Program-made: the position numbers and the translations under genes
NCBI GenBank assembly: GCA_934394545.1
Contig: CAKRRG010000051.1
Span: 1 to 20,976 of the forward strand
DNA from: an uncultured Blautia sp.
Lineage (GTDB): Bacteria; Bacillota; Clostridia; Lachnospirales; Lachnospiraceae
Reading direction: 5' to 3'
DNA: 20,976 nt
Notes under the pieces: model-generated
Seen by the model: the letters and a program-made list of their open reading frames with translations, nothing else
Databases searched by the model: none
What the model was told of the DNA's origin: nothing
Shown here: piece after piece, positions 666-18,243 of the stretch
Position numbering within the stretch: the stretch's first letter is position 1
Layout: each line of letters opens with the position of its first letter

Positions 666-669
666 TATG

Positions 670-1656: not shown

Positions 1657-3457
1657 GATGTTCCTCCTGATCTATAGGAATCACTACTGTGACCGTAGTA
1701 CCAATTCCTAATTTGCTCTCATAACGCAGGCCATATTCCTTTCCATAGTACATAGAAAGCCTCCGCTGAACATTATATACGCCAACACCATTAGACCGAT
1801 AATTGACCTTATGCTTCTCAAAAATACGTCCTAAAGTCTCCTCATCCATTCCAACTCCATCATCCGTTATCTCAATTACTGCATTTTTGTTTTTCTGATA
1901 TCCGTTTATGATCAGCATTCCCTTAGATTCTTTATATTTCAGGCCATGATAAATTGCATTTTCCACAATAGGCTGAAGCACAAGCTTTACAATATGCACA
2001 CTGTTAATTACAGGATCCACATTAATTTCGAATTCCAGTTTATCCTTATAACGCATTTTCTGAATCGTAAGATAGCTTTTTACATACTGAATCTCCTGAC
2101 CAATAAGAACCGTCTCATCCTCATTACTGATACTCTGACGTAAAAGCCTGGCCAGAGAAGCTGTCATCACCACTACATCTTCATATTTCTTTCCCTCAGC
2201 CATCCAGATAATAGAATCCAGCGTATTATACAGAAAGTGAGGATTGATCTGGGACTGTAAAGCCTTCAGTTCGCTCTTGCGCTTCAGCTCCTGTTCCCGA
2301 ACATTCTGTGCCATCAGATCTTCGATTTTATGGGTCATTACATGAAAAGATGTTGTGAGGCTTCCAATCTCATTCTGAGAGGGAACAACCAGATCATCCG
2401 CTGCCTTAAAATCCCCCTCCTGTACACGCTCCATGGAATCTCGCAGTTTCTGAATCGGAAGGGTAATACTGCGGGCAATAAAGCTGGAAATAGCCATAGC
2501 AATGGCAACCAGCACAATTGCAGTCATAACATAAATATTATTTGCCTCCCTGCTGTTCTTTAAAAGCTCTGCCATGTTCATACAGCCCACAATGGTCCAT
2601 CCTGTAGTCTCCGACCGGGAAAGCGTATATATTTTTTCATCTGCTCCCTCGCCTGTTACCACCGTATCTGAATCCGCATTCATTACAATGTCAATATTTT
2701 CCGTCTGAAGTTCATTGTATAACTGCTGCTGGCTTGGATGATAAACAATATTTCCATTTTCATCCAGAATAAATACATAGCCCTTATCTCCGATACTATT
2801 CTGATCACAAAGTTCACTTATAGCACTATAATTCAGGTCAATAAATACAACTCCATCACTGTTCCCGGTTCCGTAAAAATTATGTACTTCACGGCTTAAA
2901 GTAATCACCCAGGGACGCTGACCCTTGATCACATGTTGTACATGGGAAGAACTAAGACAATACTTGTTATAATTATCAACTGCATTGGTATACCATTCCT
3001 GAGTGGAAAGATCCAAATCCGGATTAATTGCCTGATATCCGCTGTTAATAAGCATAATGCCATCCTTTTGTACAATTCCGATATTACAGATATCTTCACG
3101 CCCCTTCAGAATTGTACTAAATTGCTCCAGGAGACGTTTTCTGTGTCCTTCCTTTGCTGCCTCATCTTCCCCGATCTGCTGATATAAAAGCTGATAAGCA
3201 TCCTGGCTTTTGGCAATAACGGAAGCAATGTTATCCATATAAGTGATATACGAATCTATATTCTGATTCAGCTGCTTTATGATCGTCTGCGTATAAATAG
3301 TGGAATTCTCATAAATTGTAGAAGTAGTATAGCGCACCGATATTACAGTTGCCACAAGAACCGCACAGAGAACCAGAGCAGAAATAGCTGCAAATATGGT
3401 ACTTTGAATACTTTTAAAGCCTTTCAGAAGTTTTCGTTCTCTGCTCTTTTCATTCAT
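1643..3457 (-). CDS. Sensor histidine kinase, Cache-HAMP-His_kinase-HATPase (YesM/LytS-like)
   Basis: A 604-aa membrane sensor kinase. Visible order: TM1 about 20-42; extracellular double-Cache-like region about 45-300 (GYVFILDENGNIVYHP is typical); TM2 about 308-328; HAMP about 329-382; His_kinase motif QSQINPHFLYN with the probable phospho-acceptor His407; ATPase domain with N-box QPIVEN (Asn500), G1 box DDGVGM, and a second glycine box NGVGVYNV. It should phosphorylate the response regulator at 4491-6113. The start at 3457 forms an ATGA overlap with the end of apbE, with GGAGG about 10 nt upstream. Having both its own Cache input domain and a co-encoded sugar-binding protein suggests two inputs. 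The family is certain; the stimulus is not. Confidence 0.93.
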   Translation of the reverse strand: MNEKSRERKLLKGFKSIQSTIFAAISALVLCAVLVATVISVRYTTSTIYENSTIYTQTIIKQLNQNIDSYITYMDNIASVIAKSQDAYQLLYQQIGEDEAAKEGHRKRLLEQFSTILKGREDICNIGIVQKDGIMLINSGYQAINPDLDLSTQEWYTNAVDNYNKYCLSSSHVQHVIKGQRPWVITLSREVHNFYGTGNSDGVVFIDLNYSAISELCDQNSIGDKGYVFILDENGNIVYHPSQQQLYNELQTENIDIVMNADSDTVVTGEGADEKIYTLSRSETTGWTIVGCMNMAELLKNSREANNIYVMTAIVLVAIAMAISSFIARSITLPIQKLRDSMERVQEGDFKAADDLVVPSQNEIGSLTTSFHVMTHKIEDLMAQNVREQELKRKSELKALQSQINPHFLYNTLDSIIWMAEGKKYEDVVVMTASLARLLRQSISNEDETVLIGQEIQYVKSYLTIQKMRYKDKLEFEINVDPVINSVHIVKLVLQPIVENAIYHGLKYKESKGMLIINGYQKNKNAVIEITDDGVGMDEETLGRIFEKHKVNYRSNGVGVYNVQRRLSMYYGKEYGLRYESKLGIGTTVTVVIPIDQEEHHEKA

Positions 3458-4494
3458 TGAATGTTTTCCTCCAAAACCTCCCAGTCCTGCTCTGACTGAA
3501 AATTCTCTTTAAGATTATCCGAAATATAAATTTTATTATCTGTAGTAATCAGAATTATATCAAATTCATCCCTATGCATTCTCCAGAACTGACAGGCCTT
3601 CTCAAAGCCCATGATATAAAGTGCCGTAGACATTCCGTCAGCAAGGGTTCCATCCTTTGCTACAATGGTAACTGACAATAAATCTCCGACAACCGGATAT
3701 CCCGTTCTCGGATCCACAATATGGATATAAGTCTGCCCATTTTCTTCAAAGTACCGTTCATAACCACCAGAAGTAACCACTGCCTGGTCTTTCACTGATA
3801 AAATGCCAACAAAATCCTGCTGTCCACCTTTTGGATCTCGAATTCCAACCTTCCAACTGCTGCCGTTGGGCTTTGCGCCAATAGCCTGAATATTTCCCCC
3901 AAGGGAAACCAAAGCAGAAGCAACACCATATTCCTGAAAAATTTCAGTAAGGTTCTGACCTGTATAGCCCTTGGCAATTCCACCAAGGTCAATCTGCTGA
4001 TTCAGGCCTAAAGTTACCTGATTTTGTAATCCCTGGTTCTGAATTTCAACTTTTTCTCCATCTACTAATGCCAGTGCATCTTTGATCCTGGAAGCTGACG
4101 GAACATGATAGTCCCCGGTTGGAAAGCCCCATAATTTCATCACCGGATAAATCGTATCATCAAAAAGACCTTCTGTTTCCTGAAAGATTTCTTTTCCTCT
4201 CTTTATAATAGAAAACAGCTCATCTGACACCACAAGACTTCCTTGCTCATTTAACGCGTAAACTTCACTATTCCCATTCTGGGCTGATAACATTTCATCT
4301 AATCTCTGGACTTCTTTCATGGCTGCATCTACTGCTTTCTCGCTATTTCTTCCGTAAGCAGTAAATTCCATATACGTGTCCATTGCAAACAACTGCTTCT
4401 GACACTTTTTATTCTGGTTCATATACAGGTATCCTATGACTGTCAAAAGTAAAATTCCTATAAATATACCTGTTACCAGTGTATTTCTTTTCAT
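3454..4494 (-). CDS. apbE: ApbE-family FAD:protein FMN transferase, membrane-anchored
   Basis: ApbE proteins act outside the membrane and link FMN from FAD, Mg-dependently, to a Ser/Thr of target flavoproteins. At 346 aa the length is normal. Seen: one N-terminal hydrophobic segment (about 8-26) with no lipobox, then family motifs in order: FAMDTYM, DLGGIAKGY, VSLGGNI, TSGGYERYF, HIVDPRTGYP and ADGMSTALYIMG. It overlaps both neighbours by 4 nt (regulator upstream, kinase downstream), so it is firmly part of the signalling operon; its own ribosome site (AAGGG) is weak and suggests translational coupling. No typical acceptor sequence (around SGA[ST]) was noticed in the neighbouring proteins, so its substrate is probably encoded elsewhere. 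Family secure; the role in this operon is unknown. Confidence 0.92.
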   Translation of the reverse strand: MKRNTLVTGIFIGILLLTVIGYLYMNQNKKCQKQLFAMDTYMEFTAYGRNSEKAVDAAMKEVQRLDEMLSAQNGNSEVYALNEQGSLVVSDELFSIIKRGKEIFQETEGLFDDTIYPVMKLWGFPTGDYHVPSASRIKDALALVDGEKVEIQNQGLQNQVTLGLNQQIDLGGIAKGYTGQNLTEIFQEYGVASALVSLGGNIQAIGAKPNGSSWKVGIRDPKGGQQDFVGILSVKDQAVVTSGGYERYFEENGQTYIHIVDPRTGYPVVGDLLSVTIVAKDGTLADGMSTALYIMGFEKACQFWRMHRDEFDIILITTDNKIYISDNLKENFQSEQDWEVLEENIQ

Positions 4495-6113
4495 ATGGTT
4501 CTTTTTTCCCTTGCATATTCTGTCGGGGTTTTCCCTGTCATTTTCTTAAAAGAAATTCCAAAATAATGAGGATCTGAAAAGCCTACCATTTCTGCAATTT
4601 CATAATTCTTGAAGGTTGTCTGCTCCAAAAGTTCCTTAGCTTTCTCCATGCGGATCTTACTGAGAAATTCCAGGAACGTTCCTCCTGTAGCCTCCTTAAA
4701 AACCGTGCTGAAATAGCTGGTACCTATATTTAGATAAGAACAGATATCGTTTAATCCAAATTCCGGCTCCGCATAATGCTCACGGATATATTCCATAGCA
4801 AGTACCGCCTGCTTCTGACCGCTGGAACTGTTCAGGGAAGAACAACGTTCGAATACCTCATGAACATACTCTTCTGCCATTTTGAAAGCCTCCCTGAAGG
4901 TTTTCTTTTCTGTTAACTTTCCTATGAGGATTTCCCGCTTATGGAATAAATCTTCATCCTCGGTTGAAAGAGATTCCCAACAACTGCCTGCATGACGAAG
5001 GATCATCTGCAAGCAAACACAAGCCTGACTCTTATCCACTCTTGCTTTCTTAATTTCAGACTTCATAACTGCAAGAGCCTGATTCATCTTCTCTTCATCG
5101 CCCTTCTTGATTCCATCTATCATATCACTTAAAGGCTTCTGTAAAGAAAGGTTTCTCTTAGGGTTCAGAGTCTCTGTATCAATAAGCAAATTTCCTCCAA
5201 GTAAATAACGAAGCTCTATAGCCTTTTCAGCCTGCTGATGTGATTGGATTGTTTCTCCAGGACTTCTTACCCAGCCTCCTATTCCGGTAGAAACCTCAAT
5301 ACCGATTACTTCTTTAACTTTATCCTGGATCTCCCTGCAGATTTCCTGGATTTCAGAAGAAAACTCCCTGCTGTGATTTCCCATAAAGAGAATACACACC
5401 CTGTTATTTCCTTCCTGATAAGCAATTCCTGCCTTCCGGTTAGTTACGATTTCATCTGCCACATTAAACAGAACAAACGCCATTAATGCACTTTCCTGGC
5501 GTTTTTCCATATCAATCTGATGAATATCAGAAAAAAGATCCATATCAAAAACTGCAACGCGATAGGATGCTGCATCCAAGTGGATTCCCATCTCTTCAAG
5601 CTCGGACAGACTCTCCTTCACATCTCTTGTACAGCTTACCAGTGACTCAATTGCCTTGGAACGAATCACCAGGGCATTCTTGTGATAATCCTGAGAAGTC
5701 TTTGTAAGAGATTCTATTTTCTTTTTTTCTTTACGCTGCTGATCAACCTTCTCCTTCATTTTTCCTATTACTTCACGAAGTTCCATGGCAGTTACGGGCT
5801 TCAGCATGTATTCGCTCACATTGTACTGGATTGCCTTCTTGGCATATTCAAACTCTCCGAATCCACTGAAGATTACAATTACGATTTCCGGATAATTATC
5901 ATGCAGGAAATGACTCAGTTCCATTCCATCCATGTATGGCATAAGGATATCCGTGAGAACAATATCTACCGGGTGATTCTGCACAAAATCTACTGCCTGC
6001 TTTCCATTCTCGCAGTCTCCTACAAGCTCGCAATCCATAGACTTCCAGTCAATGTTCTCCTTAATAGCATCACGCACCAGGATTTCATCATCTACAAGTA
6101 AAATTCGATACAT
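4491..6113 (-). CDS. YesN-type response regulator (REC + AraC DNA-binding domain)
   Basis: A 540-aa cytoplasmic transcription regulator. The N-terminal receiver domain (1-~120) has the acidic pair Asp8/Asp9, phosphorylation site Asp55 in VLTDILMPYMDG, switch Ser83 and Lys105 in YMLKPV. The middle (about 120-430) is a helical and GGDEF-like linker region common in long YesN proteins. The last ~100 residues form two AraC-type helix-turn-helix motifs (LNDICSYLNIGTSYFSTVFK; EIAEMVGFSDPHYFGISFKK). It is the first gene of the apbE-kinase-binding-protein operon and overlaps apbE by 4 nt. It probably activates the adjacent ABC transporter genes; the repeats at 638-665 are a candidate site. Family very sure, target inferred. 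Confidence 0.94.
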   Translation of the reverse strand: MYRILLVDDEILVRDAIKENIDWKSMDCELVGDCENGKQAVDFVQNHPVDIVLTDILMPYMDGMELSHFLHDNYPEIVIVIFSGFGEFEYAKKAIQYNVSEYMLKPVTAMELREVIGKMKEKVDQQRKEKKKIESLTKTSQDYHKNALVIRSKAIESLVSCTRDVKESLSELEEMGIHLDAASYRVAVFDMDLFSDIHQIDMEKRQESALMAFVLFNVADEIVTNRKAGIAYQEGNNRVCILFMGNHSREFSSEIQEICREIQDKVKEVIGIEVSTGIGGWVRSPGETIQSHQQAEKAIELRYLLGGNLLIDTETLNPKRNLSLQKPLSDMIDGIKKGDEEKMNQALAVMKSEIKKARVDKSQACVCLQMILRHAGSCWESLSTEDEDLFHKREILIGKLTEKKTFREAFKMAEEYVHEVFERCSSLNSSSGQKQAVLAMEYIREHYAEPEFGLNDICSYLNIGTSYFSTVFKEATGGTFLEFLSKIRMEKAKELLEQTTFKNYEIAEMVGFSDPHYFGISFKKMTGKTPTEYAREKRTI

Positions 6114-6321: not shown

Positions 6322-7332
6322 TTATTTTACAATTACACCATCCTCATCCCAGAGATCGTGCCAGTCCTTTGCACCTTCCCATAGAAATACATGTCCCTTA
6401 ATCAGACGATTATTCTTATCCAAAGAACGGATGATTTCCATTTCTTCTTTTGTCAGAGGATCCTCTGTAACACATTTCAGATTCATGGTGTAATTTTTCT
6501 CTTTTAATGAAAACGGAATTGGAGACGCCCCTCTCTGTACAGCCCATTTAATGCAGATAACTGCCGGATGAACCCCATGCGCTGATGCAATTGCTTTCAG
6601 TTCCGGTAACTCAATGTCTGCAATATCCTCCGGCATTTTATCACGCTCCGGACGCTCAGGGGAACCAATTGGGCAGAAGCCAACTACTTCAATTCCATGT
6701 TTCTTACAATAATCAAACAACTCCGGCTGCTGAAAACAAGGATGAAGTTCCATCTCAATTGCTGCCGGTTTGATTCTGCAAAGAGGAAGAACTGCTTCCA
6801 GTTTCGGAATTGTCATATTCGACATACCAATATGTCTGGTAAGTCCCATATCCACCAGCCGCTCCATCTGGCGCCATGTCTTCATAAAACGTTCTACTGT
6901 GAACGGCTTAGAATCAGGATTTCTGGAATCTACATCACAATGTGGTGCATGATAATTCGGAAATGGCCAGTGAACATAGTACATATCCAGATAATCAAGT
7001 TTCAGATCCTTTAAAGTCTTCGCACAAGCAATCAGAACATCTCCATCACCATGCATATCATTCCATACTTTAGACGCAATAAAAAGCTCTTCTCTTTTCA
7101 CTTCGCCCTGGGCAAACGCATCTGCAAAAATTCTTCCGATCATATCTTCGTTTCCATAGCATGCAGCGCAGTCAAAGGAACGGTATCCCACACGAATAGC
7201 ACCTGCTACAGAAGCAGCGACTGCTTCTGCGTCCGCATGATCACTTCCGAAGGTTCCCATACCTACAGCCGGCATCTTAGCACCAGTATAAAGAATTCTC
7301 TGGGGAACAATTGCTGGATCAATCATTGTCAT
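6322..7332 (-). CDS. Aldo/keto reductase
   Basis: A 336-aa NAD(P)H-dependent oxidoreductase of the AKR (TIM-barrel) superfamily that interconverts carbonyls and alcohols. The catalytic tetrad is visible as Asp54 and Tyr59 (SFDCAACYGNE), Lys88 (IASKVWND) and His121 (YYVHWPFP); HIGMSN and CPIGSP match usual strand/loop motifs. The start at 7332 was chosen because AAGGAGG lies 8 nt upstream; a second Met is two codons further in. It is the last gene of the operon, 19 nt after the PfkB gene and just before a terminator. In this context it may interconvert an aldose and its alditol, or clear a reactive aldehyde from the pathway; neither can be shown here. Confidence 0.92.
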   Translation of the reverse strand: MTMIDPAIVPQRILYTGAKMPAVGMGTFGSDHADAEAVAASVAGAIRVGYRSFDCAACYGNEDMIGRIFADAFAQGEVKREELFIASKVWNDMHGDGDVLIACAKTLKDLKLDYLDMYYVHWPFPNYHAPHCDVDSRNPDSKPFTVERFMKTWRQMERLVDMGLTRHIGMSNMTIPKLEAVLPLCRIKPAAIEMELHPCFQQPELFDYCKKHGIEVVGFCPIGSPERPERDKMPEDIADIELPELKAIASAHGVHPAVICIKWAVQRGASPIPFSLKEKNYTMNLKCVTEDPLTKEEMEIIRSLDKNNRLIKGHVFLWEGAKDWHDLWDEDGVIVK

Positions 7333-7351
7333 TATTTTATCCTCCTTGGCA

Positions 7352-8281
7352 TTATAATTTCTTAATTTTAATCTGTGGAAGCAGTTTCTCCATATCCTCC
7401 ATTACAAAGAAGCCTGTCTCCTCGCGCATTGCCGCAGCTGCTGAAATAGCACTTGCCAGCCTTAATGTCTCTGCAAGAGAAAGACCCTTAGCAAGTCCCA
7501 GGGCAAAACCAGCAATCATGGAATCTCCACAACCAACTGTATTTACTGCCTTTATTTTCGGCACATGCGCACGATAAATTCCTTCGTTTCCTACTACAAG
7601 AGAACCATCCGCGCCAAGAGAAACTGCCACTATTTCTACACCTTTAGCATGTATATCCTTCGCAGCCTTTATAATATCCTGAATGTCCTCACAATTCTTC
7701 CCTGTAAGCATTCGAATCTCATCAATATTGGGCTTGATCATAGTCGGCGCCTCTTCAATTCCCATTTCCAGAAGCTTACCACTTGTATCCAAAATAACTG
7801 GAATTCCTGCATCCTTCACAATCTTCACAAGACGTTGGTATGCAGTTCCGTTAAGTCCCTTAGGAACACTTCCTGACATAGCTACTACCTTGGCATCTTT
7901 TACAAGGCTGCAAAATTTCTCTTCAAATCCTGCAAAATCCTCTTCTGTAAGAGTAAAACCTGGCTCCAGAAATTCAGTCTGTACCTGATTTACTTCATCC
8001 CATATATTAATACAGGATCTGCTCTCCCCATGAACATGATAAAAGGCACTCTTAATTCCAAATGGCTTCAAAGCTTCCTCAATATAATTTCCTGCATGGC
8101 CACCTACAAAGCCTGTAGCAACAACCTCAGCTCCATAAATTGAAGCTGGTTTTGAAACATTCAATCCTTTACCACCAGGCACATATGTACATTCCTTAAC
8201 ACGATTTACTTCACCAGTCTTAAACTCATCTACCACATAACGCTTATCAATGGCTGCATTTAATGTCACCGTCAGTATCAT
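7352..8281 (-). CDS. PfkB-family sugar-phosphate kinase (1-phosphofructokinase / tagatose-6-phosphate kinase type)
   Basis: An ATP-dependent kinase of the FruK/LacC branch of PfkB, which makes a ketohexose 1,6-bisphosphate from a 1- or 6-phosphate. Seen: the N-terminal start MILTVTLNAAIDKRY, signature 1 VPGGKGLNVSK, an SGSVPKG loop, and signature 2 NTVGCGDSMIAGF with the catalytic Asp253. I place the start at 8281, not the in-frame ATG at 8296, because GAGGAG lies about 7 nt upstream, the family begins at MILTVTLN, and the upstream ATG lies inside the preceding gene. The gene is 309 codons, normal for the family, and starts 4 nt after the dehydrogenase gene. Next to a GatD-like dehydrogenase and GatY-like aldolase, tagatose-6-phosphate kinase activity fits best; 1-phosphofructokinase is the alternative. 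Confidence 0.92.
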   Translation of the reverse strand: MILTVTLNAAIDKRYVVDEFKTGEVNRVKECTYVPGGKGLNVSKPASIYGAEVVATGFVGGHAGNYIEEALKPFGIKSAFYHVHGESRSCINIWDEVNQVQTEFLEPGFTLTEEDFAGFEEKFCSLVKDAKVVAMSGSVPKGLNGTAYQRLVKIVKDAGIPVILDTSGKLLEMGIEEAPTMIKPNIDEIRMLTGKNCEDIQDIIKAAKDIHAKGVEIVAVSLGADGSLVVGNEGIYRAHVPKIKAVNTVGCGDSMIAGFALGLAKGLSLAETLRLASAISAAAAMREETGFFVMEDMEKLLPQIKIKKL

Positions 8282-8285
8282 GTTC

Positions 8286-9335
8286 TCACTCCTCATTCAT
8301 TAAAAGGATCTTACCTTTTACAAGGCCGGGAGTCTTATAAAGCTGAAAAGCATCCTGAGCCTGGCTCATTGGCATCTTGCAATAAATAAAGCCTGGATCA
8401 AATTTCAACTGACCAGTTGCAAAATAGTGGGCTGTAAGCTCCCATTCCTTACCTGGAAACGGAGAACTATAAGACATCCAGGAGCCTGTAAGCTTAAACT
8501 CTTTACGATTCATATTCTCCCACTGCTGTGGAGTAAAAGTAAGATCTTTATGTGGAGTTCCAATAAAGCATACATGTGCCTTATTTGCAGCAAGAGTGAA
8601 CGCCATATGCATTGTGGGTACCTGTCCTGCTGTCTCAAATACATATTCATAGCCCTTACCCCCGGTAATTGCCATGGCTTCTTCTATATAGTTCTCTTTC
8701 GTTGTATTGATAACTGCATCTGCTCCCATTCTCATTGCAAGTTCCAGACGCTCATCACTGATATCAAATACTACAACTTTCTTTGCCCCGAAAATTTTTG
8801 CCCACTGCATGGTGAAAATGCCAATCGTTCCACAGCCAAGAATAGCCACACATCTGCCGCCTTGATACTCATTCTGAAGAAGTCCATGAAGAGCGACGGT
8901 AGACGGCTCAAACATAGCACCTTGCTCATAGGAAATAGATGGATCAAACGGAATGGCATTCTGTTCTGGAATTACTACATAATCAGCATTGCTTCCCTGC
9001 TGTCTGGAACCAATAAAGCTGTAGTGCTTACATAATGAAAAATTCCCATTCTGACAGTCATCACACTTCATACAAGGCAGAAGAGGCGCCCCTGAAACAC
9101 GATCTCCAACCTTTACTTTCGTAACGCCCTCTCCGATTTCTACCACATCACCGGAAAACTCATGTCCCAAAACAATAGGATAAAAATGAACACCATGATT
9201 TAATACTCGCGGAACGTCAGATCCACAGATACCGGAAGCTTTCACCTTGATCTTTACCCATCCCGGTTTTACCTGTGGCTCTTCAATTTCCTGATACTGT
9301 ACATTCTCATTTGCAATTACAACTGCTGCTTTCAT
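8286..9335 (-). CDS. Zinc-dependent polyol dehydrogenase, GatD-like (galactitol-1-phosphate 5-dehydrogenase family)
   Basis: A 349-aa medium-chain dehydrogenase (MDR). Zinc and structural residues are complete: catalytic Cys37 (GICGSD), His58-Glu59 (GHEF), Glu143 (FEP), and structural cysteines 88, 91, 94 and 102. The NAD-binding glycine motif is LGCGTIG (167-172). From memory it aligns with E. coli GatD nearly end to end, including CGSDVPRV, FYPIVLGHEFSG, PLLPC, FIGSR and especially GSWMSYSSPFPGKEWE near residue 284; this match was not computed. GatD oxidises galactitol-1-phosphate to tagatose-6-phosphate. AAGGAGG lies 9 nt before the ATG. It sits between an FGGY kinase (14 nt) and a PfkB kinase (4 nt). 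Action on a free polyol (sorbitol dehydrogenase type) is the alternative. Confidence 0.92.
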   Translation of the reverse strand: MKAAVVIANENVQYQEIEEPQVKPGWVKIKVKASGICGSDVPRVLNHGVHFYPIVLGHEFSGDVVEIGEGVTKVKVGDRVSGAPLLPCMKCDDCQNGNFSLCKHYSFIGSRQQGSNADYVVIPEQNAIPFDPSISYEQGAMFEPSTVALHGLLQNEYQGGRCVAILGCGTIGIFTMQWAKIFGAKKVVVFDISDERLELAMRMGADAVINTTKENYIEEAMAITGGKGYEYVFETAGQVPTMHMAFTLAANKAHVCFIGTPHKDLTFTPQQWENMNRKEFKLTGSWMSYSSPFPGKEWELTAHYFATGQLKFDPGFIYCKMPMSQAQDAFQLYKTPGLVKGKILLMNEE

Positions 9336-9349
9336 CTAAAAATTCCTCC

Positions 9350-10864
9350 TTACTGCCGCACCATCATACCTTTAAGTGCTTCATATAGTTCCCTGTAGGT
9401 ATGATATGTCTTATCATATATTTCTTCATTCATAAGATTAGGTTCCTGGCGTCTTGTTTCCCTCACTGTCATGGAAACAGCTTCCTCATAATCTTTATAA
9501 AATCCAACACCTACCCCTGCAAGAATTGCAGCACCTAATGTAGTCGCTGTATCAGAAGCAGGTACAACCACTGTCTTGCCAGTCACATCTGCCTTAATCT
9601 GTGTCCAGAGAATGGAATTGGCAGAACCGCCCATAGCACGAAGTACCTCTGCCTTGACGCCTGCTGATTCCGCAACTTCCAGGTTATGACGCAGGGAAAA
9701 TGCTACCCCTTCCATACAGGCCCGCACCATATGCCCTTTTGTCTTAGCAAAATCAAGGCCATAGAAAACGCCTTTCGCATAAGGATTCCATATCGGAGAC
9801 CTCTCACCAGACATATATGGAAGAAATACAACTCCTTCACTTCCGGCAGGCACTTCCTGGGCAAGTTCATTTAACTGATCAAAAGACGATTTCCCAGTTT
9901 CAATCTTCTGGCTTCTTTCGTAATCTGCAAATTCTTTCTCAAACCAGCGCATAACACCACCGCCACCTGTAGTTCCTCCTTGCAGAAGCCACTTTCCAGG
10001 TACGACATGGTATCCCAGGATCAGGCTTGGATCTGCCTTATAGGTATCTGTACAGATACTCATACCACCAGCTTGTCCTCCCTGTTCCTGTGTCTCTCCG
10101 GAATGTATTACTCCGGCACCAAGTGTACCACAAGCTGCGTCCAGACCGCCTGCTACTACTGGTGTTCCTGCTGCTAATCCGCTCTGGACTGCTGCCTCTT
10201 CCGTCACAGTTCCCACTACTTTATCACAAGGTACGATCTCCGGCAGAAAATCCATAGGAATTCCAAGACGCCGACACATCCTCTCATCCCATCTTCCCGT
10301 ACGCATATTAAAACAATGCAGTCCATATCCCTGTGAAAGATCCTGTGTAATAGCACCAGTCAATCTATAAGCAATAAAACTGTTCGATTGAAGAACCTTA
10401 TAAATCTTCTTATACACTTCAGGCATATTCTCCTTGTACCACAGAATCTTCGCTGTCGTATAAGAAGGCTGAAGGGAATTTCCGGCAACATCAAAAATAT
10501 CCCTGCTGCCAATTTCATTATTGAGTCTGTCACAAATCTCCTGAGCTCTGGTATCCATCCAGATGGGGGTGTCAGTCAGTACATTACCCTCTTGATCAAT
10601 GGCGATAGCAGACCAACTCTGTCCGTCTATTCCAACACCGGCAATCCTGTCACCGGAAATCTGTCCCCTTTTCAGGCACTTCTGAATAGCAAAACACACT
10701 GCGCTCCACCACTCATCCGGTTTCTGCTGCGCCCATCCCTGGTGTAAATAATAAACAGGATAATCTCCGCTGGCAGAAGACACCACCGTCCCATTTTTAT
10801 CAAATATGGCAACCTTACAGGCACTGGTCCCAATGTCAATACCTATTAAATAATCTTTGCTCAT
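9350..10864 (-). CDS. FGGY-family carbohydrate kinase (xylulokinase-like)
   Basis: A 504-aa ATP-dependent sugar or polyol kinase with the two-domain FGGY fold. Seen: phosphate-binding start YLIGIDIGTSACK (Asp10), sugar-contact loop GIDGQSWSA (78-86), WMDTRA (102-106), catalytic Asp242 in AGGLDAACGTLGAG, glycine loop GGTTGGGG, and a C-terminal ATP site AMGGSANS followed by ATTLGAAILAG. Overall it resembles XylB most, but XylB has GQMHG where this protein has GQSWS, so the substrate is probably not xylulose. It overlaps the lacI stop by 4 nt (ATGA) with AAGGAG 6 nt upstream. By context it may phosphorylate a hexitol or ketohexose before the GatD-like step. It is not clearly FucK. Confidence 0.92.
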   Translation of the reverse strand: MSKDYLIGIDIGTSACKVAIFDKNGTVVSSASGDYPVYYLHQGWAQQKPDEWWSAVCFAIQKCLKRGQISGDRIAGVGIDGQSWSAIAIDQEGNVLTDTPIWMDTRAQEICDRLNNEIGSRDIFDVAGNSLQPSYTTAKILWYKENMPEVYKKIYKVLQSNSFIAYRLTGAITQDLSQGYGLHCFNMRTGRWDERMCRRLGIPMDFLPEIVPCDKVVGTVTEEAAVQSGLAAGTPVVAGGLDAACGTLGAGVIHSGETQEQGGQAGGMSICTDTYKADPSLILGYHVVPGKWLLQGGTTGGGGVMRWFEKEFADYERSQKIETGKSSFDQLNELAQEVPAGSEGVVFLPYMSGERSPIWNPYAKGVFYGLDFAKTKGHMVRACMEGVAFSLRHNLEVAESAGVKAEVLRAMGGSANSILWTQIKADVTGKTVVVPASDTATTLGAAILAGVGVGFYKDYEEAVSMTVRETRRQEPNLMNEEIYDKTYHTYRELYEALKGMMVRQ

Positions 10865-11868
10865 TCTTGTCTCCTTATGGATCTTCCCATAAAAATATCC
10901 GTCTGAAGTTTCCGTATGATCTGCTTTGGAAGCTCTTCTTTTCCTTCCAGACGCTCCAACATGATCATTGCAGTTTCTCTGGCAATTTTCTCCGTAGGCT
11001 GGGAAATAATCGTAAGCGCTGGTCTGCAGGCACGGGCAAAAGGCAAATTATCAAACCCAACCATGGAAATCTTCTCTGGCATAGATACTCCCATCTCATT
11101 CAGACCAATCACTGCCCCCATAGTCATTTCATAATTCGTTACAAAAATGGCTGTCATGTCAGGATTTTCCTTCACTAAATTCTCTACAGCCTGAACTCCC
11201 CCCTGGATCGTATAATCACCATGACAGATCAGTTTCTCATCTACCGGAATCCCATGCGCCTTAAGCGCCTTAAGGTATCCAAGCATACGCTGTCTTGCTG
11301 TATATACCTCATCAGGTCCACCGATCAGGCCAATTCTATGATGTTCCTGCTCTACTAACAATGCCACTGCCTTCTCAGCTGCATTCTCATTGTCTACAAG
11401 TATACAGTCACAGGAAATTCCCTGAATCATACGGTCAATAAGGACGATCGGCTTGCCTGTTCTCTGAAATGCTTTTAAATGAGAACCTGTCATATCTACC
11501 GGCATATTGATAATACCGTCAACTCGCTTACGAGTTAAGAAATCTATAGCCTCCTTCTCAAGCCCTTTATCTGTTCTGCAGTCACACACTATAGCAGCAT
11601 ATCCATGGCTTCGAAGGATATCCTCCATTCCACTGATAACCTCTGCACAGAATACATTATTCAATTCCGGAATCACAACTCCCACAGTCTTCGTGGCATT
11701 CGTCTTAAGACCACGGGCAACTTCATTCACTTCATAATGCAGTTCTTCAATAGCCTCTTCAATCTTGATACGATTCTTCTCTCTTACATTCCCACCGTTA
11801 AAATAAGAGGAGATCGTTGCCAGTCCAAGACCTGTCCTCCTGGCAATATCTTTCATTGTTGCTGCCAT
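10861..11868 (-). CDS. LacI-family transcriptional repressor
   Basis: A 335-aa repressor. The N-terminal helix-turn-helix and hinge helix are clear (MKDIARRTGLGLATISSYFN, then VNEVARGLKTNATKTVGVVIP). A periplasmic-binding-like effector domain follows (FCAEVISGMED, DGIINMP, RIGLIGGP, SMVGFDNLPFA). It is the second gene of the operon, 11 nt after the aldolase, with AGAGG 7 nt before the ATG at 11868. A LacI-type palindrome with central CG lies on the start site of the operon promoter (12785-12794), so autoregulated repression lifted by a pathway sugar or sugar phosphate is likely. The effector is not identifiable. Confidence 0.95.
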   Translation of the reverse strand: MAATMKDIARRTGLGLATISSYFNGGNVREKNRIKIEEAIEELHYEVNEVARGLKTNATKTVGVVIPELNNVFCAEVISGMEDILRSHGYAAIVCDCRTDKGLEKEAIDFLTRKRVDGIINMPVDMTGSHLKAFQRTGKPIVLIDRMIQGISCDCILVDNENAAEKAVALLVEQEHHRIGLIGGPDEVYTARQRMLGYLKALKAHGIPVDEKLICHGDYTIQGGVQAVENLVKENPDMTAIFVTNYEMTMGAVIGLNEMGVSMPEKISMVGFDNLPFARACRPALTIISQPTEKIARETAMIMLERLEGKEELPKQIIRKLQTDIFMGRSIRRQE

Positions 11869-11879
11869 AAAAGTGCCTC

Positions 11880-12728
11880 TTATTCAGCTTTTCCGTCACA
11901 TCCACATACCTTCATACGCGCCATTACAAGCTCCTTCACAGCAGCAATGCCGGCCTTACCATATGCCTTGGGATCAAAGACCTTCTCATCCTCAAGAGTC
12001 TTTCTTACAGCATCCGAATATGCCACACGAAGCTCTGTAGCAAAATTCACCTTGCAGATTCCCCTCTTCACACAATCCATAACATCCTCATCACTAAGTC
12101 CTGATGCCCCATGAAGAACCAACGGAATATCTACAACATCGCGTATCTCGCTTAAGCGCTCCTTATCAAGGACAGGTGTTCCCACATAGAATCCATGGGC
12201 AGTACCGATTGCAACAGCAAGAGATGTAACACCGGTGCGCTCTACAAACGCCTTCGCTTCCTGCGGATCAGTATTGGTATCTGCAACAGCAACCAGATCA
12301 TCCTCCTTGCCACCAACTTTACCTAGCTCAGCCTCGCACGGAATTCCCATAGATGCTGCCACATCAGCAACTTTCTTACTTACCTGAATATTCTCCTCAT
12401 ACTCCAGCTTAGAACCATCAATCATAATAGAGGTATATCCTGCCTTCAACGCCTTCATTGCAAGATCAAAACTGCTGCCATGATCCAGATGCAGACACAC
12501 AGGAACAGAAGCCTTCGCCGCTTCTGCTGCAACAATAGCCTGATAAGTTTCCAGAGTACCGTATTTAATTGTTGAAGGGGTAGTCTGGATCATTACAGGT
12601 GCCTTCAGTTCCTCTGCCGCTTGAATGATAGCTTTCACCATCTCCATATTCTCTGCATTAAATGCACCTACTGCGTAACCGCCCTGCTGAGCCTTCCATA
12701 ACATTTCCTTAGATGTAACAAGTGGCAT
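11880..12728 (-). CDS. Class II ketose-bisphosphate aldolase, GatY/KbaY-like
   Basis: A 282-aa zinc aldolase that cleaves a ketohexose 1,6-bisphosphate to DHAP and glyceraldehyde-3-phosphate. Zinc and catalytic residues are visible: Asp82/His83 (HLDHG), Glu134 (CEAELGKVGGKEDD), His178 (IGTAHGFY), His206 (LVLHGASGLS), and Asn228 (KVNFATEL). From memory its wording tracks E. coli GatY/KbaY (QQGGYAVGAFN, LAVAIGTAHG, RGICKVNFATEL, CGCDG at the end), so tagatose-1,6-bisphosphate aldolase is favoured over fructose-bisphosphate aldolase. The start is set at 12728, not the in-frame ATG at 12761, because AGGAGG lies just upstream and the family begins MPLVTSKEML. It is the first gene of the operon. 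No GatZ/KbaZ partner is seen. Confidence 0.93.
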   Translation of the reverse strand: MPLVTSKEMLWKAQQGGYAVGAFNAENMEMVKAIIQAAEELKAPVMIQTTPSTIKYGTLETYQAIVAAEAAKASVPVCLHLDHGSSFDLAMKALKAGYTSIMIDGSKLEYEENIQVSKKVADVAASMGIPCEAELGKVGGKEDDLVAVADTNTDPQEAKAFVERTGVTSLAVAIGTAHGFYVGTPVLDKERLSEIRDVVDIPLVLHGASGLSDEDVMDCVKRGICKVNFATELRVAYSDAVRKTLEDEKVFDPKAYGKAGIAAVKELVMARMKVCGCDGKAE

Positions 12729-12780: not shown

Positions 12781-12798
12781 AACCGAAACGTTTCCGTT
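12781..12798. promoter_or_regulatory. LacI-family operator on the operon start site
   Basis: The core GAAACGTTTC (12785-12794) is a perfect palindrome with the central CG typical of LacI-family sites; flanking bases extend the symmetry with one mismatch per side. It covers the predicted transcription start of the minus-strand operon that encodes a LacI repressor, and lies about 75 bp upstream of the fucU promoter. A CcpA cre site is a weaker alternative because the outer TG...CA bases are missing. Confidence 0.75.
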
Positions 12799-12805: not shown

Positions 12806-12834
12806 ATATTACCTCTTTTACCAGTTTCTGTCAA
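12806..12834 (-). promoter_or_regulatory. Strong sigma-70 promoter of the aldolase-lacI-kinase operon
   Basis: On the minus strand a perfect -35 TTGACA (12829-12834), an optimal 17-bp spacer and -10 TAATAT (12806-12811) are followed at once by the LacI-type palindrome. The predicted start near 12799 leaves a leader of about 70 nt before the aldolase ATG at 12728. Confidence 0.85.
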
Positions 12835-12933: not shown

Positions 12934-13377
12934 ATGTTAAAAGGAATTCCAGAAATACTTTCACCACAGCTTTTAAAGGTTTTATGCGAAATGGGACACA
13001 GTGATCGAATCGTCATTGCAGATGGCAACTTCCCAGTAGAATCCATGGGCAAAGATGCAGTTGTTGTACGCTGCGACGGACATGGCGTTCCAGAGCTTCT
13101 GGATGCTATTCTTACCGTTATTCCTCTTGACGCTTATGTTGAGAAGCCAGTAACTTTAATGGAAGTTATGCCTGGTGATCCTGTCAAAACACCAATCTGG
13201 GATACTTATAAGGAAATCGTTTCTAAGCATGATGAACGTGGTGCAGAAGCAGTTGGAAACATTGAGCGCTTCGCATTCTACGAAGAAGCAAAGAAAGCAT
13301 ATTGTATTATTGCAACAGGTGAGAAAGCTGTTTATGCAAATGTTATGCTTCAGAAGGGTGTTGTTATCAACAACTAA
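12934..13377 (+). CDS. fucU: L-fucose mutarotase (RbsD/FucU family)
   Basis: A 147-aa cytosolic enzyme that interconverts alpha- and beta-L-fucose and speeds supply of the form used by fucose isomerase. The protein is collinear with E. coli FucU from memory: start MLKGIPEILSPQLLKVL, catalytic-site GHSDRIVIADGNFP (His22, Asp30), and C-terminal RFAFYEEAKKAY with ATGEKAVYANVMLQKGV. The length is normal. It is monocistronic on the plus strand with its own promoter and a strong terminator 17 nt after the stop. fucI lies about 1.6 kb away on the other strand. The related RbsD (ribose pyranase) is less likely given the FucU-like C-terminus and fucI nearby. Confidence 0.92.
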   Translation: MLKGIPEILSPQLLKVLCEMGHSDRIVIADGNFPVESMGKDAVVVRCDGHGVPELLDAILTVIPLDAYVEKPVTLMEVMPGDPVKTPIWDTYKEIVSKHDERGAEAVGNIERFAFYEEAKKAYCIIATGEKAVYANVMLQKGVVINN

Positions 13378-13433: not shown

Positions 13434-14708
13434 TTATTTCGATTCGTTATTTTTATCTTTTTTCTTAAGAAGCCATACCACTATTACTACACCGATGATA
13501 ATGACTATAATTAAAATCCAGATTGCCGAATGCATTCCTTTAGAAGTGCTTTCTACATTCTCACTGGACGTTTCCTGCTGAGCATCATCTGCTGGTGCTT
13601 CTGTTGCTGCTGGCTCCTCTGTAGGTGTGAGAGTCTCCACCGGCTCTGGAGTTGCAGTTGCTGCCTCTGTCGGTTCCGGAGTTGCGGTTGCTGCTTCTGT
13701 CGGTTCCAGAGTTGCGGTTGCTGCTTCTGTCGGTTCCGGAGTTGCGGTTGCTGCTTCTGTCGGTTCCGGAGTTGCAGTTGCTGCCTTAGTTGGTTCCGGA
13801 GTCGCAGTTGCTGCTTTAGTTGGCTTAGGAGTTGCAGTTGCTGCCTTAGTTGGTTCCGGAGTCGCAGTTGCTGCCTTAGTTGGCTCCGGAGTCGCAGTTG
13901 CTGCTTTAGTTGGTTCCGGAGTCGCAGTTGCTGCTTTAGTTGGCTCTGGAGTCAGGGTACTTGTCTTATCGTCCTTCGGAGCTGGCGTATTTGTAGCCTG
14001 TAACTTTCCAGAAGCTTCTGCAGCACTTGATTTACCAACCTTGGACTGATTTCCGTCTTCACCAGATTCGGAACTCTCTTCTTTCGTTTCCGGAACAAGT
14101 TCCACTGTACTTTCTTCTGTATTCGTAGCTTCGGCAATATTTACCCATCCAGAAACATCGCCTGCCGCTGTCAATCCCCACACACCATCTTTACCGGTAT
14201 CAACTTCTGAATCAATATGTAATTTCTCTCCATTGGCTATATTACAGCCACCGGAAACTGTACCATATTTTTTTCCGGGACCTTTGTAAAGAGAGAGAGA
14301 ACCGTCTTTCTTGGCATTTACAGTAATATCATAATTTGCATCCTGGCTTCCATATAAACTAAGCTCTGATGCAACTGCTTCTGCAAGAGTAACCGGCTTT
14401 AGATAATTTTCCTCAAGGAAGCCAAATACATTGTGAAGCTGTGCATATACCCAAATCTTCCCTGCATCGTCCTTGGTCTCGCCTTCTACATGAATGGCAG
14501 TTCCATTGGGAATCAGCTCATCGTTCAGCTTCGGACTAGAGAGATCCGCTTCTGAATACATATCTATCCCACCATCCGGAGACTCTACAATCATATAGTA
14601 ATCTGTTTTATAATCTACCTGCTGCGTCTTTCCGGCATCTGCAAAAGTCCCCACGGACATGCCAAAAGTTAGAAGCACTGCTAGCAGTATACCCAGCTTT
14701 CTCTTCAT
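13434..14708 (-). CDS. Secreted SH3-like surface protein with PEPTKAATAT repeats and C-terminal membrane anchor
   Basis: A 424-aa protein of unknown function. Seen: a signal peptide (about 1-25, KLGILLAVLLTFGMSVGTFADA); two SH3b-like segments, about 35-110 (ending FGFLEENYLKPV) and about 125-200 (LYKGPGKKYGTV, then VSGWVNIAEA); an acidic Ser/Glu-rich linker; ten tandem 10-residue Pro/Thr/Ala repeats; an acidic Thr/Ser-rich stretch; a transmembrane helix (SAIWILIIVIIIGVVIVVWLL); and a short basic tail KKKDKNNESK. The architecture suggests a bacterial SH3 module held away from the membrane by a stalk, possibly binding cell-wall peptides. GAGG lies 6 nt before the ATG, and a good promoter lies upstream. 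It is a single-gene unit with no visible link to sugar use. Confidence 0.85.
   Translation of the reverse strand: MKRKLGILLAVLLTFGMSVGTFADAGKTQQVDYKTDYYMIVESPDGGIDMYSEADLSSPKLNDELIPNGTAIHVEGETKDDAGKIWVYAQLHNVFGFLEENYLKPVTLAEAVASELSLYGSQDANYDITVNAKKDGSLSLYKGPGKKYGTVSGGCNIANGEKLHIDSEVDTGKDGVWGLTAAGDVSGWVNIAEATNTEESTVELVPETKEESSESGEDGNQSKVGKSSAAEASGKLQATNTPAPKDDKTSTLTPEPTKAATATPEPTKAATATPEPTKAATATPEPTKAATATPKPTKAATATPEPTKAATATPEPTEAATATPEPTEAATATLEPTEAATATPEPTEAATATPEPVETLTPTEEPAATEAPADDAQQETSSENVESTSKGMHSAIWILIIVIIIGVVIVVWLLKKKDKNNESK
13651..13950. repeat. Ten tandem 30-bp repeats encoding P-E-P-T-[KE]-A-A-T-A-T
   Basis: Exactly ten in-frame copies of a 30-bp unit fill these 300 bp. In protein order the first six units carry Lys at position 5 and the last four carry Glu; one unit has PKPT and one has LEPT. 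The 30-bp period keeps the open frames seen on the other strand open too, so those are artefacts. Such arrays change copy number easily by slippage or recombination. Confidence 0.97.
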
Positions 14709-14956: not shown

Positions 14957-16753
14957 TTATTTATAGAGAGGTCCATAGTTCTTGCAAGCTCTGAAGTCTG
15001 CACCCTCTTTATCCATTCCGAATGCATTCCATGCTGCCGGACGATAGATATCTTTTTCCGGAACATTGTGCATGGATACCGGAATACGAAGCATAGAGCA
15101 CATTGTGATCAGGTCAGCTCCGATGTGTCCGTAGGAAATAGCACCGTGGTTAGCTCCCCAGTTGTTCATTACATCATAAGCAGTCTTGAACGGTCCCTCT
15201 TTGCCATCGCATCTTGGAGCGAACCATGTACATGGCCATGTATAGTCTGTACGTTTCCAGAGTTTGTCAGATACTTCTGCCGGAAGAGCAACTGTCCATC
15301 CTTCCGCAATCTGCAGAACCGGTCCAAGTCCTTTAACAAGGTTCAGACGAATCATAGTTGCAGGCATCTGAGCTTTTGTTTCATAACGGCTGGAGTATCC
15401 GCCTCCACGGAAATATCCGTTGTCAGCCATACACCATTCTGTGTTGTCCATGATTGCTTTCTGGTCTTCTTCTGTAATATCCCACCACTGTTTCATAACA
15501 GCATTGCCGTTTTCGTCTTTCGCTTCGCCGTTAGCATCAAGGCAAGCAGCACCAGAGTTGATCAGGTGAAGGAATCCGCCAGCTTCTTTCGCTACACCTT
15601 CAAGGTCATATCCTGTAGCTTTCTTAACTGCCTCTGGGCTCCAGTATGTACGAACGTCAGCGAAAATCTGAGCTCTGTTTGTAAGGAGTTTCATGAACAT
15701 CATTCCAAGTCCGTTGAGAACGTCATTCTCTGTAGCGAGGATGTATGGCTCACGAGCTCCGTTCCAGTCGAAGGATGTGTTCAGCATAGCTTCTGCGAAG
15801 TCACCGTTTGGATAGAAGTCTGTCCACTGTCTCTGTCCCTGGAAACCAGCTGCCAGAGCATTGTGTCCGATTGCTTCTTCGGAGAATGCAGGATCAAGGT
15901 TATCGCAGCCGTTCATCAGCTCTTTGATGATAACTGCCATCTTAACTACGAATTCAAACTGCTCTTCTTTCTTTTCTGGAGAGAACTGCAGTTCTTCTGG
16001 ATTCTTATCCCAACCGATCTTACATGTTTCTTTAGCCCATTTGAGAGCTTTTTCGAATTCTTCGTGATCGTAGATACCTTCTGTCATACGACGGATGATT
16101 TCTACCTCATCAACGGATTCAACACGCATTCCAAGATAGGATTCGATGAAATCGGAATCAATGATAGATCCGCCGATACCCATTGTAACGGAACCGATCT
16201 GCAGATAAGATTTTCCTCTCATGGAAGCTGCTGCAACTGCTGCACGTCCGAATCTGAGTAATTTTTCTTCAACGTCTGCCGGGATAGATGTGTCATCAGC
16301 TTCCTGAACATCATGTCCATAGATACCGAATGCCGGAAGACCTTTCTGTGCATGTGTAGCAAGAACGGATGCAAGGTAAACTGCTCCTGGTCTTTCTGTT
16401 CCATTGAAGCCCCATACAGCTTTAATTGTCTGAGGATCCATATCCATTGTTTCTGCGCCATAGCACCAACATGGTGTAACTGTAAGTGTGATGTCAACGC
16501 CTTCTTTACGGAATTTGTCAGCACATGCAGCACTCTCACCTACACGTCCGATCGTTGTATCAGCGATAACAACTTTAACAGGCTCACCATTAGAATATCT
16601 AAGGTTTTCCTCAAAAAGTTTCGCAGCGGATTTAGCCATGTTCATGGTCTGCTCTTCAAGAGATCCTCTGACATCGAGTGCTCCTCTACGTCCGTCGATT
16701 GTTGGTCTGATACCGATAACCGGATAGCTGCCTACTAATCTGCTCTTTGCCAT
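14957..16753 (-). CDS. fucI: L-fucose isomerase
   Basis: A 598-aa cytosolic Mn-dependent isomerase that converts L-fucose to L-fuculose (and D-arabinose to D-ribulose). The length matches the family. Seen: N-terminal [53 protein letters not shown], and metal ligands Glu342 ([11 protein letters not shown]), Asp366 (IFADVRTYW) and His536 ([17 protein letters not shown]), which agree closely with the E. coli positions. GGAGG lies 9 nt before the ATG at 16753. It is a single-gene unit divergent from an AraC regulator, with its own terminator. The kinase and aldolase that usually follow in the pathway are not next to it; its likely fate is lactaldehyde and then 1,2-propanediol for the pdu genes to the right. 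Confidence 0.97.
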
Positions 16754-16948: not shown

Positions 16949-17797
16949 TTGCAGGATCTGGACCATAATGAAGATCGTTTACGGGGAACTTATGATTTTC
17001 CTTTTGAATTTCATCATATTGATAAAACCCATCCACGCTATGTGATGTCCTATCACTGGCATGTAGAATACGAAATTATCCGTATACTTGAAGGTTCTCT
17101 TACTGTCACTTTAGACGAAAAAAGTTTTATTGCAGCAGCCGGAGACATCATTTTTGTACATAGCGGAATACTTCACAGTGGAATTCCTGACAATTGTATC
17201 TATCAATGCATTGTTTTTGATGGGAATGTTTTTCTCAAAAATAATTCCGTATGCGCAGGATATATGCAGAAGATCATTCATCAGGAAATTTTGATCTACC
17301 ATCATTTTACGCCAAAACATAAGGAGGTTTGCAATACCATAAACAACCTTTTTAATGCACTTTGGAAAAGAGCCCCTGGATATGAGCTTTCTGTAATTGG
17401 ACAATTTTACCACTTTTTTGGTATTGTTTTTAGTAATCATTACTATCTTGAAAGCGTTACACGTGCACGACGCGATTATAAAAGAATTTTGCAGCTGAAA
17501 CAGGTCCTGGATTTCATTGAACACAATTATGCGGCACCCATAACGCTAAAACAGCTTTCCGCCTCTGTATCCATGTCACCAAAGTATTTTTGTCGTTTTT
17601 TCTCCGAAATGACCCATCAGACTCCTATGGATTATCTGAATCGACAGCGTATTGAAAGGGCCTGCTACGAAATTTCGACAACCGATGATTCCATAACCGA
17701 TATTGCCTACCGAAATGGTTTTAACGACCTGAGTTATTTTATCCGGACTTTTAAAAAATACAAAGGGACTACCCCTGGAAAATATAAGAAAAGCTGA
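16949..17797 (+). CDS. AraC-family transcriptional regulator with cupin sensor domain
   Basis: A 282-aa regulator. The N-terminal half is an AraC-type cupin sugar-sensing domain (SYHWHVEYEIIRILEGSLTV, then AAGDIIFVHSGILHSG). The C-terminal ~100 residues carry two helix-turn-helix motifs (ITLKQLSASVSMSPKYFCRF; ITDIAYRNGFNDLSYFIRTF) and end PGKYKKS. The start is TTG at 16949, supported by AAGGAGG 8 nt upstream; no better ATG is nearby. It diverges from fucI across a 195-bp region holding two promoters and several palindromes, so it is probably the fucose or lactaldehyde-responsive activator of fucI and perhaps of the pdu genes. Family certain; ligand and targets inferred. Confidence 0.93.
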   Translation: MQDLDHNEDRLRGTYDFPFEFHHIDKTHPRYVMSYHWHVEYEIIRILEGSLTVTLDEKSFIAAAGDIIFVHSGILHSGIPDNCIYQCIVFDGNVFLKNNSVCAGYMQKIIHQEILIYHHFTPKHKEVCNTINNLFNALWKRAPGYELSVIGQFYHFFGIVFSNHYYLESVTRARRDYKRILQLKQVLDFIEHNYAAPITLKQLSASVSMSPKYFCRFFSEMTHQTPMDYLNRQRIERACYEISTTDDSITDIAYRNGFNDLSYFIRTFKKYKGTTPGKYKKS

Positions 17798-17802
17798 TTC
17801 AG

Positions 17803-17829: not shown

Positions 17830-17831
17830 AT

Positions 17832-18119: not shown

Positions 18120-18125
18120 TCTTCT

Positions 18126-18154: not shown

Positions 18155-18243
18155 CGCAATTCGGTCGTAAAATTCTCCCATAATCCGACATTGAAATGAT
18201 AAATTTTATCAGTTCCCGGAGTTTTCTTTTTCTTTAAACGTGC

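Follow-up and report, generated by a model that had tools for sequence, protein, structure and literature searches.

We describe here a six-gene operon in a 20,976-nt stretch of DNA (the window) from an uncultured Blautia sp. (contig CAKRRG010000051.1 of assembly GCA_934394545.1, forward strand). The operon occupies positions 6322-12728 on the minus strand and encodes a GatY-like aldolase, a LacI-family regulator, an FGGY kinase, a GatD-like dehydrogenase, a PfkB kinase and an aldo-keto reductase (AKR). It is real and recurrent; we observed directly its gene set, its recurrence, a common operator and a swap between PfkB and GatZ in its relatives. It apparently belongs to one regulon, and its kinase is probably misnamed in databases. 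We tentatively propose, at somewhat less than even confidence, that the operon provides a LacI-controlled route into the tagatose-6-phosphate pathway that is independent of the phosphotransferase system (PTS), in which the AKR, the FGGY kinase, the GatD-like dehydrogenase, the PfkB kinase and the GatY-like aldolase would act in this order. The operon is a variation on the known galactitol and tagatose pathways and not a new kind of pathway. All six reading frames are open, point in the same direction and are nearly contiguous, with gaps of 11, -4, 14, 4 and 19 bases from the aldolase to the AKR. The operon and its control region comprise the following features:

11880-12728, minus strand: GatY-like class II ketose-bisphosphate aldolase; best NCBIfam model NF009374 (GatY), 374 bits, below the cut-off of 383; best PDB match 1gvf (AgaY).
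10861-11868, minus strand: LacI-family regulator, proposed operon repressor; Pfam PF00356 and PF00532; conserved palindrome at the operon promoter.
9350-10864, minus strand: FGGY kinase, proposed galactitol (or tagatose) kinase; PF00370 and PF02782; signature DGQ[SG]W[SA]A.
8286-9335, minus strand: GatD-like Zn dehydrogenase; best PDB match 4a2c (E. coli GatD); motifs CGSDxPR, FIGSR and GSWMxYSSP.
7352-8281, minus strand: PfkB kinase (LacC/FruK-like), proposed tagatose-6-phosphate kinase.
6322-7332, minus strand: AKR, proposed aldose reductase; PF00248; best PDB match an AKR1A-type aldehyde reductase, then mannose-6-phosphate reductase.
12782-12797, no strand assigned: proposed LacI operator ACGGAAACGTTTCGGT, a near-palindrome between GatY and the divergent FucU.
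12806-12834, minus strand: promoter-like TTGACA-17-TAATAT directly upstream of the operator; the whole promoter scan gave no more sites than shuffled sequences.
12934-13377, plus strand: RbsD/FucU mutarotase, divergent from the operator region; assigned by Pfam only (PF05025), since the L-fucose mutarotase model gave 125 bits, below its cut-off of 141.

One scan of the GTDB species genomes with the kinase returned 75 loci, 72 of which were close (57-88% identity); the remaining L073-L075 (23-25%) were excluded from all counts of 72. The close loci were found in Blautia, Faecalicatena, Robinsoniella, Bilifractor, Anaerocolumna and further Clostridia, mostly Lachnospiraceae, and contained GatD (68 loci), GatY (64), LacI (53), AKR (53), PfkB (52), FucU (41), FucI (15) and GatZ (7). 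The complete set of GatY, LacI, FGGY, GatD, PfkB and AKR was present in 40 of the 72 loci, many contigs being cut, and this recurrence exceeds chance. FGGY and GatD form the core pair, which was kept in 66 of the 67 loci having at least 1.3 kb downstream. The sole exception was a Robinsoniella genome (G004), in which GatY-GatD-PfkB lies elsewhere, near an MFS transporter, and the FGGY kinase stands with an AKR, a KdgT-family permease and FucU, without GatD. No PTS gene was seen among the window's open reading frames of at least 100 amino acids. The preliminary description of the locus had asked whether the six genes recur as a set without PTS genes; the set does recur without them, but three of the 72 relatives (L027, L033 and L034) have a galactitol-type PTS. 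In the literature searched, whose coverage leaves out most subscription journals, we recognised no publication describing the operon.

Tagatose-6-phosphate is fairly likely to be the node of the pathway, because PfkB and GatZ exchange for one another and never co-occur in a locus. The window has no GatZ-type epimerase; seven loci carry a GatZ/KbaZ-type gene in place of the missing PfkB, and the two of these proteins scanned scored 494 and 530 bits (cut-off 569). GatZ has been reported to be a tagatose-6-phosphate/fructose-6-phosphate 4-epimerase, according to the accessible part of PMC11907403. In 49 loci flanked by 4 kb on either side, PfkB alone was found in 37, GatZ alone in seven, neither in five and both in none (Fisher p 9e-6, uncorrected for ancestry), and none of the 72 close loci holds the two together; GatZ changes four times on the kinase tree. 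Genome-wide, PfkB of the operon kind, searched at E ≤1e-50 in 25 genomes, was detected in none of the seven genomes with GatZ in the operon versus 15 of the 18 others. GatZ itself was found in seven of 26 genomes, in six of them within the operon, and G018 carries GatZ outside and PfkB inside the operon. The PfkB slot has been occupied by at least two old lineages.

The operator, a near-palindrome with the consensus ACmGAAACGTTTCGGT, is located directly downstream of the -10 box in the promoter of GatY, in a region shared with the divergent FucU, which was absent from the preliminary description together with the surrounding fucose genes. A search of the 72 loci and the window, 73 sequences in all, with up to two mismatches allowed found 62 sites in 49 of them, or 73 sites with the repeats in loci L076 upward, which overlap earlier ones; 60 of the 62 precede GatY, FucU, LacI, FGGY or GatZ, and two lie inside an ATP-binding cassette (ABC) transporter gene. 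In whole genomes, the strict pattern was matched in 28 of 45 genomes at 29 places, against one of 45 genomes for the reversed control, and all 29 places are before GatY (GatZ in one) and/or FucU. The two-mismatch search gave one site before FucI, in G060, with a different LacI nearby. In G063, a lone AKR (61% identity) and the AKR-less FGGY locus each carry the operator with one mismatch. Judged from these sites, FucU and the operon appear to form a single LacI regulon, from which the strict search leaves out FucI and the microcompartment. Because the sites stand before GatY or GatZ and/or FucU, the AKR and FucU were assigned to the pathway, which suggests that an aldose is first reduced to galactitol. 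A mutarotase gene was present in 34 of the 42 loci with an AKR and in none of the seven without, with ancestry not removed; L031 and L032 are counted for a RhaM that is probably part of adjacent rhamnose genes, and without them the figure is 32 of 42. The combination of a mutarotase with an aldose-type reductase, without an isomerase, suggests that the reductase and the dehydrogenase replace the isomerase. Whereas the preliminary description had a polyol entering the pathway, the co-regulated AKR and FucU suggest that the first compound to enter is an aldose. An aldose 1-epimerase (PF01263 in L066) was also observed upstream of GatY in L064, L066 and L048 as an extra mutarotase, placed between FucU and GatY in L064 and L066.

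In the three PTS-bearing relatives, genes for a PRD-type regulator, EIIA, EIIB and EIIC precede FGGY-GatD-PfkB-GatY, and neither AKR nor FucU is present. The EIIC proteins of L034 and L027 scored 459 and 510 bits with the galactitol model (cut-off 542), the EIIA of L034 had the galactitol model as its best match (83 against 139) and its EIIB matched PF02302; the remaining PTS components were assigned by likeness. In the GatD tree, the PTS loci fall within a supported clade that also includes L022, an AKR locus, as well as L053 and L057, which are of the ABC type. The gene family is therefore not PTS-free as a whole, and in the PTS loci the dehydrogenase probably meets galactitol-1-phosphate. 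It is mainly for this reason that we prefer the kinase-first order, which is slightly favoured if the tagatose-6-phosphate node and galactitol as substrate are granted. The ATP-dependent phosphorylation without a PTS put forward in the preliminary description survives in that the best reading is still an ATP-dependent entry, without a PTS, into the tagatose-6-phosphate pathway, but it does not extend to these three of the 72 relatives. The ABC transporter at the left edge of the window, which the same description had nominated as a possible hexitol importer, looks more like a fucose-type importer: its permease shares 71% identity with a Faecalicatena permease located next to FucU-FucI-FucK, and fucose induces a CUT2 ABC system in Clostridium phytofermentans (in the portion of PMC3557285 available to us), so it is a poor witness for hexitol import.

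The families of the window proteins were determined by NCBIfam, Pfam and PDB searches. The best NCBIfam model of the GatD-like enzyme was NF007642, galactitol-1-phosphate 5-dehydrogenase (309 bits, below the cut-off of 550). The GatY model NF009374 gave 418 bits in the PTS locus L034, above its cut-off, and 375 in L053. The PfkB kinase passed the 1-phosphofructokinase model TIGR03828 (317 against a cut-off of 292) and failed the LacC model TIGR01231 (254 against 410). GatY- and GatD-like enzymes and an FGGY kinase in the operon, as originally described, were borne out; the LacC-like label of the PfkB kinase is corrected by these scores. The GatD-like motifs are strongly conserved, with R43 of CGSDxPR in 67 of 67 aligned rows, R111 of FIGSR in 66 of 67 and GSWMSY in 66 of 66. 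All three are matched in E. coli GatD (with N replacing the second S) and, the two arginines included, are absent from the aligned xylitol and threonine dehydrogenases; the two conserved arginines presumably bind phosphate. The FGGY kinase exceeded the cut-off of the xylulokinase model TIGR01312 (400 against 380). Its S83-W84 aligned to M-H of E. coli XylB (2itm), which we take to be the XylB pair at the substrate-specificity positions. W84 was found in all 71 rows with that column filled and D242 in all 72 rows (window included), while position 83 was S in 62 rows and G in nine. The weight of such substrate-specificity positions is treated in the accessible part of PMC3245297. Of 4823 homologues passing, 120 were listed, and the five named among these were all 'xylulokinase', in gut Blautia. 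At least one further FGGY kinase (28-36% identity) was present in 25 of 26 genomes. A second group of this kinase (54-64% identity; L086:8512-10008, L087:9422-10930 and L088:10255-11508) occurs without GatD in operons with DeoR and a MalFG-like ABC transporter; in L087 and L088 it has two URO-D-like genes as neighbours, of which the one scanned matched PF01208. A related AKR (59-60%) in L113:299-6261 and L102:4288-6789 is accompanied by DeoR-like genes and a transaldolase (PF00923 in L102); L113 has a further FGGY kinase and an MDR dehydrogenase as well. This may represent a cousin polyol operon.

In the proposed route, FucU would balance the anomers of a galactose-configured aldose, and the AKR would reduce the aldose to galactitol, which the FGGY kinase would convert with ATP to galactitol-1-phosphate. 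The GatD-like enzyme, to judge from homology and shared motifs, would then yield D-tagatose-6-phosphate, which by homology the PfkB kinase would convert to the 1,6-bisphosphate and the GatY-like aldolase would cleave into dihydroxyacetone phosphate and glyceraldehyde-3-phosphate. Relatives without the AKR and the mutarotase might import galactitol as such, through either an ABC transporter or a galactitol PTS. The order of the reactions and the substrate, whether galactitol or D- or L-galactose, are what we infer, and the chances of galactitol being the substrate are about even. L-galactose is the 6-hydroxy twin of L-fucose, with which it has its configuration in common, and is a constituent of certain pectins and xyloglucans of plants and of certain galactans of algae; the fucose links of the operon make it the boldest candidate. 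FucU might then balance the anomers of L-galactose, the AKR would make galactitol, and the kinase and the GatD-like enzyme would take the other end to D-tagatose-6-phosphate, so that the L-sugar would enter the D-series via meso galactitol. We regard this as rather unlikely, although it would explain the location among L-fucose and L-rhamnose genes and the fucose-type mutarotase; D-galactose has other routes. The galactokinase model was passed in 15 of 26 genomes and the other 11 had only a homologue below the cut-off, a pattern too mixed for a gap in the Leloir pathway to count as support for D-galactose.

The operon sits within an island of L-fucose genes, with FucU, a repeat-rich protein, FucI, AraC, PduO-HbpS and an iron alcohol dehydrogenase following on its right. 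The neighbouring features are as follows:

3-6113, minus strand: two-component system (response regulator, ApbE, histidine kinase, sensor-type sugar-binding protein) and the start of the ABC permease, which is incomplete, being cut by the left window edge.
13434-14708, minus strand: repeat-rich protein with about ten 30-base repeats (ATATPEPTKA-like), an apparent signal and a C-terminal membrane segment.
14957-16753, minus strand: L-fucose isomerase FucI; NCBIfam NF008220, 1040 bits, above the cut-off of 775.
16949-20976: AraC regulator (plus), PduO-HbpS (minus) and iron alcohol dehydrogenase (minus).

A Pfam search gave no match for the repeat-rich protein, which is retained between FucI and FucU in Blautia relatives (32-63% identity). 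The ApbE gene (3454-4494, minus strand) separates the response regulator from the histidine kinase in the window, while in the relatives G003 and G020 (L098 and L104) these two genes follow each other directly, with an overlap of a few bases. Scanning the window for RNA families and tRNAs returned none. In Faecalicatena (G005), the fucose genes form a separate operon with FucK, an ABC transporter and a two-component set related to the window's left edge, about 20 kb from the FGGY-GatD operon. In two Blautia genomes, a microcompartment-type region upstream of FucI contains a glycyl-radical enzyme (glycerol-dehydratase family) and a class II aldolase, and a microcompartment shell protein was confirmed in the corresponding Faecalicatena region.

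Several observations weigh against the proposed route. To our knowledge, no galactitol kinase has been described, and the FGGY gene is retained in the PTS loci, where such a kinase looks redundant. All six PfkB proteins scanned, the window's included, pass the FruK model and fail LacC, and the window's GatD and GatY fall below their equivalog cut-offs, as do the GatZ and EIIC proteins scanned. The strict operator is unmatched in 17 of the 45 genomes, including G063. The associations were uncorrected for ancestry, and independent pairs were too few for significance. Furthermore, the AKR tracks FucI. An AKR was scored as present when it lay within the FGGY locus or when a copy elsewhere reached 65% identity; L069 (cut kinase) was excluded, and L006 and L027 belong to the same genome. 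On this basis, we counted both in 57 of 71 loci, neither in nine, AKR only in three and FucI only in two; a recount with the copies of 59-62% (G023, G059, G063 and G064) gave 58, six, six and one. Of the six independent pairs, three or four agree and none opposes, and the sign test was not significant. Moreover, AKR copies of 65-67% outside the known FGGY stretch adjoin FucI, FucK or a microcompartment region in G010, G047, G048 and G060, which is compatible with a role as lactaldehyde reductase. The copy in G010 is 190 kb from FGGY and accompanied by PfkB, and those in G047, G048 and G060 are on non-FGGY contigs, although the contigs of G060 may join; G034 was set aside, a contig break explaining its AKR distance. 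A FucI search of G047 found none, and two of its loci (L111 and L117) show a microcompartment-type region with a glycyl-radical enzyme, an aldolase and an AKR. In Lachnospiraceae bacterium 3-2 (L106:15186-17145), an AKR and a PfkB are located in a fucose/microcompartment region apart from FGGY-GatD-GatY (L041).

These fucose links keep alive the reading that the operon is composite, with FucU and the AKR serving L-fucose and FGGY-GatD-PfkB-GatY serving imported galactitol, co-expressed because both sugars arrive together; the AKR would then act as a lactaldehyde reductase that supplies the microcompartment with 1,2-propanediol. FucI, PduO and the iron alcohol dehydrogenase in the window fit it, and the C. 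phytofermentans route, as far as the available part of PMC3557285 describes it, has no named lactaldehyde reductase, only a PduS-like guess. A role of the AKR as lactaldehyde reductase only is nevertheless weakened by the operator, whose strict form is confined to sites upstream of GatY and FucU and is missing from FucI and the microcompartment, and in G004 it is FGGY that accompanies the AKR and FucU, while GatD, PfkB and GatY lie elsewhere; we consider the composite operon a strong alternative, though somewhat less likely than the proposed route. A simpler proposal, that FGGY is an L-fuculokinase replacing FucK in Blautia, could draw on the frequency of FucI (22 of 26 and 36 of 45 genomes, or 58 of 71), on the 17 of 22 FucI genomes without a kinase at least 60% identical to Faecalicatena FucK, and on the GatD-less FGGY of G004. 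It was lowered to very unlikely, because GatD is retained beside FGGY in 11 of the 13 genomes in which no FucI was found (in drafts, where absence is soft); besides, Faecalicatena carries FucK as well as the operon FGGY, a kinase of the FucK/RhaB kind was found in all 26 genomes searched (best match at least 39%), and fucose chemistry gives GatD, PfkB, GatZ and GatY no job.

The order of kinase and dehydrogenase might also be reversed, such that galactitol, imported or made by the AKR, is oxidised to D-tagatose, which FGGY phosphorylates at C6 before PfkB and GatY act. This order is known in rhizobia and would suit FGGY kinases, which mostly act on ketoses; here the kinase scores best as a xylulokinase, and GatZ is present in some relatives. 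S. meliloti uses galactitol with the dehydrogenase SmoS and a tagatose operon, as the accessible part of PMC10433430 indicates. On the other hand, the GatD-like enzyme retains the motifs of E. coli galactitol-1-phosphate dehydrogenase, arginines included, and is also encoded in the PTS loci, in which a phosphorylated polyol is to be expected; we consider the reversed order somewhat unlikely. Finally, the AKR, the GatD-like enzyme and FGGY might be xylose reductase, xylitol dehydrogenase and xylulokinase, as the TIGR01312 score and the names of the homologues would have it. However, S-W with an invariant W replaces the M-H of XylB, other FGGY kinases are at hand in nearly all of the 26 genomes, and a pentose route leaves no role for the aldolase, PfkB and GatZ; the xylose route was rejected on the S-W pair and the surplus enzymes, and we give it hardly any credence.

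Compared with known systems, the operon resembles the E. coli gat pathway in its GatD-like dehydrogenase and GatY-like aldolase, and in the GatZ or PTS of some of its relatives, but differs in having FGGY replacing or beside the PTS, an added AKR and mutarotase, and LacI control. The fungal oxidoreductive galactose pathway uses an aldose reductase and then a polyol dehydrogenase in place of an isomerase, and an engineered yeast route reportedly runs from galactose via galactitol to tagatose; the operon shares this pair of enzymes but is bacterial, with phosphorylated intermediates and LacI control. In rhizobia, the route has a tagatose kinase and tagatose-6-phosphate as node, and A. tumefaciens has a galactitol/altritol route. 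Like the S. meliloti system of SmoS and the tagatose operon, the Blautia operon has a dehydrogenase and no PTS, but SmoS was obtained by screening short-chain dehydrogenases, a family different from the GatD-like enzyme (accessible part of PMC10433430), and the operon usually has a PfkB kinase and an aldolase where the GatZ epimerase stands, as well as an AKR. With the L-fucose/L-rhamnose propanediol microcompartment loci of Lachnospiraceae, it shares FucI, FucU, an ABC transporter and a microcompartment region as neighbours, but the fucose response of C. phytofermentans, which comprises FucU, FucK, FucI, a CUT2 transporter and a microcompartment, includes no FGGY-GatD-PfkB-GatY module in the part of PMC3557285 available.

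Since those homologues of the kinase that bear a name are called xylulokinase, metabolic models probably assign gut Blautia the wrong sugar. Should the proposed route hold, the operon would contain a kinase for galactitol (or tagatose) and a bacterial path to tagatose-6-phosphate by way of an aldose reductase, for which the small LacI regulon would offer a handle; it would also bear on which gut bacteria take galactitol, galactose or rare L-sugars.

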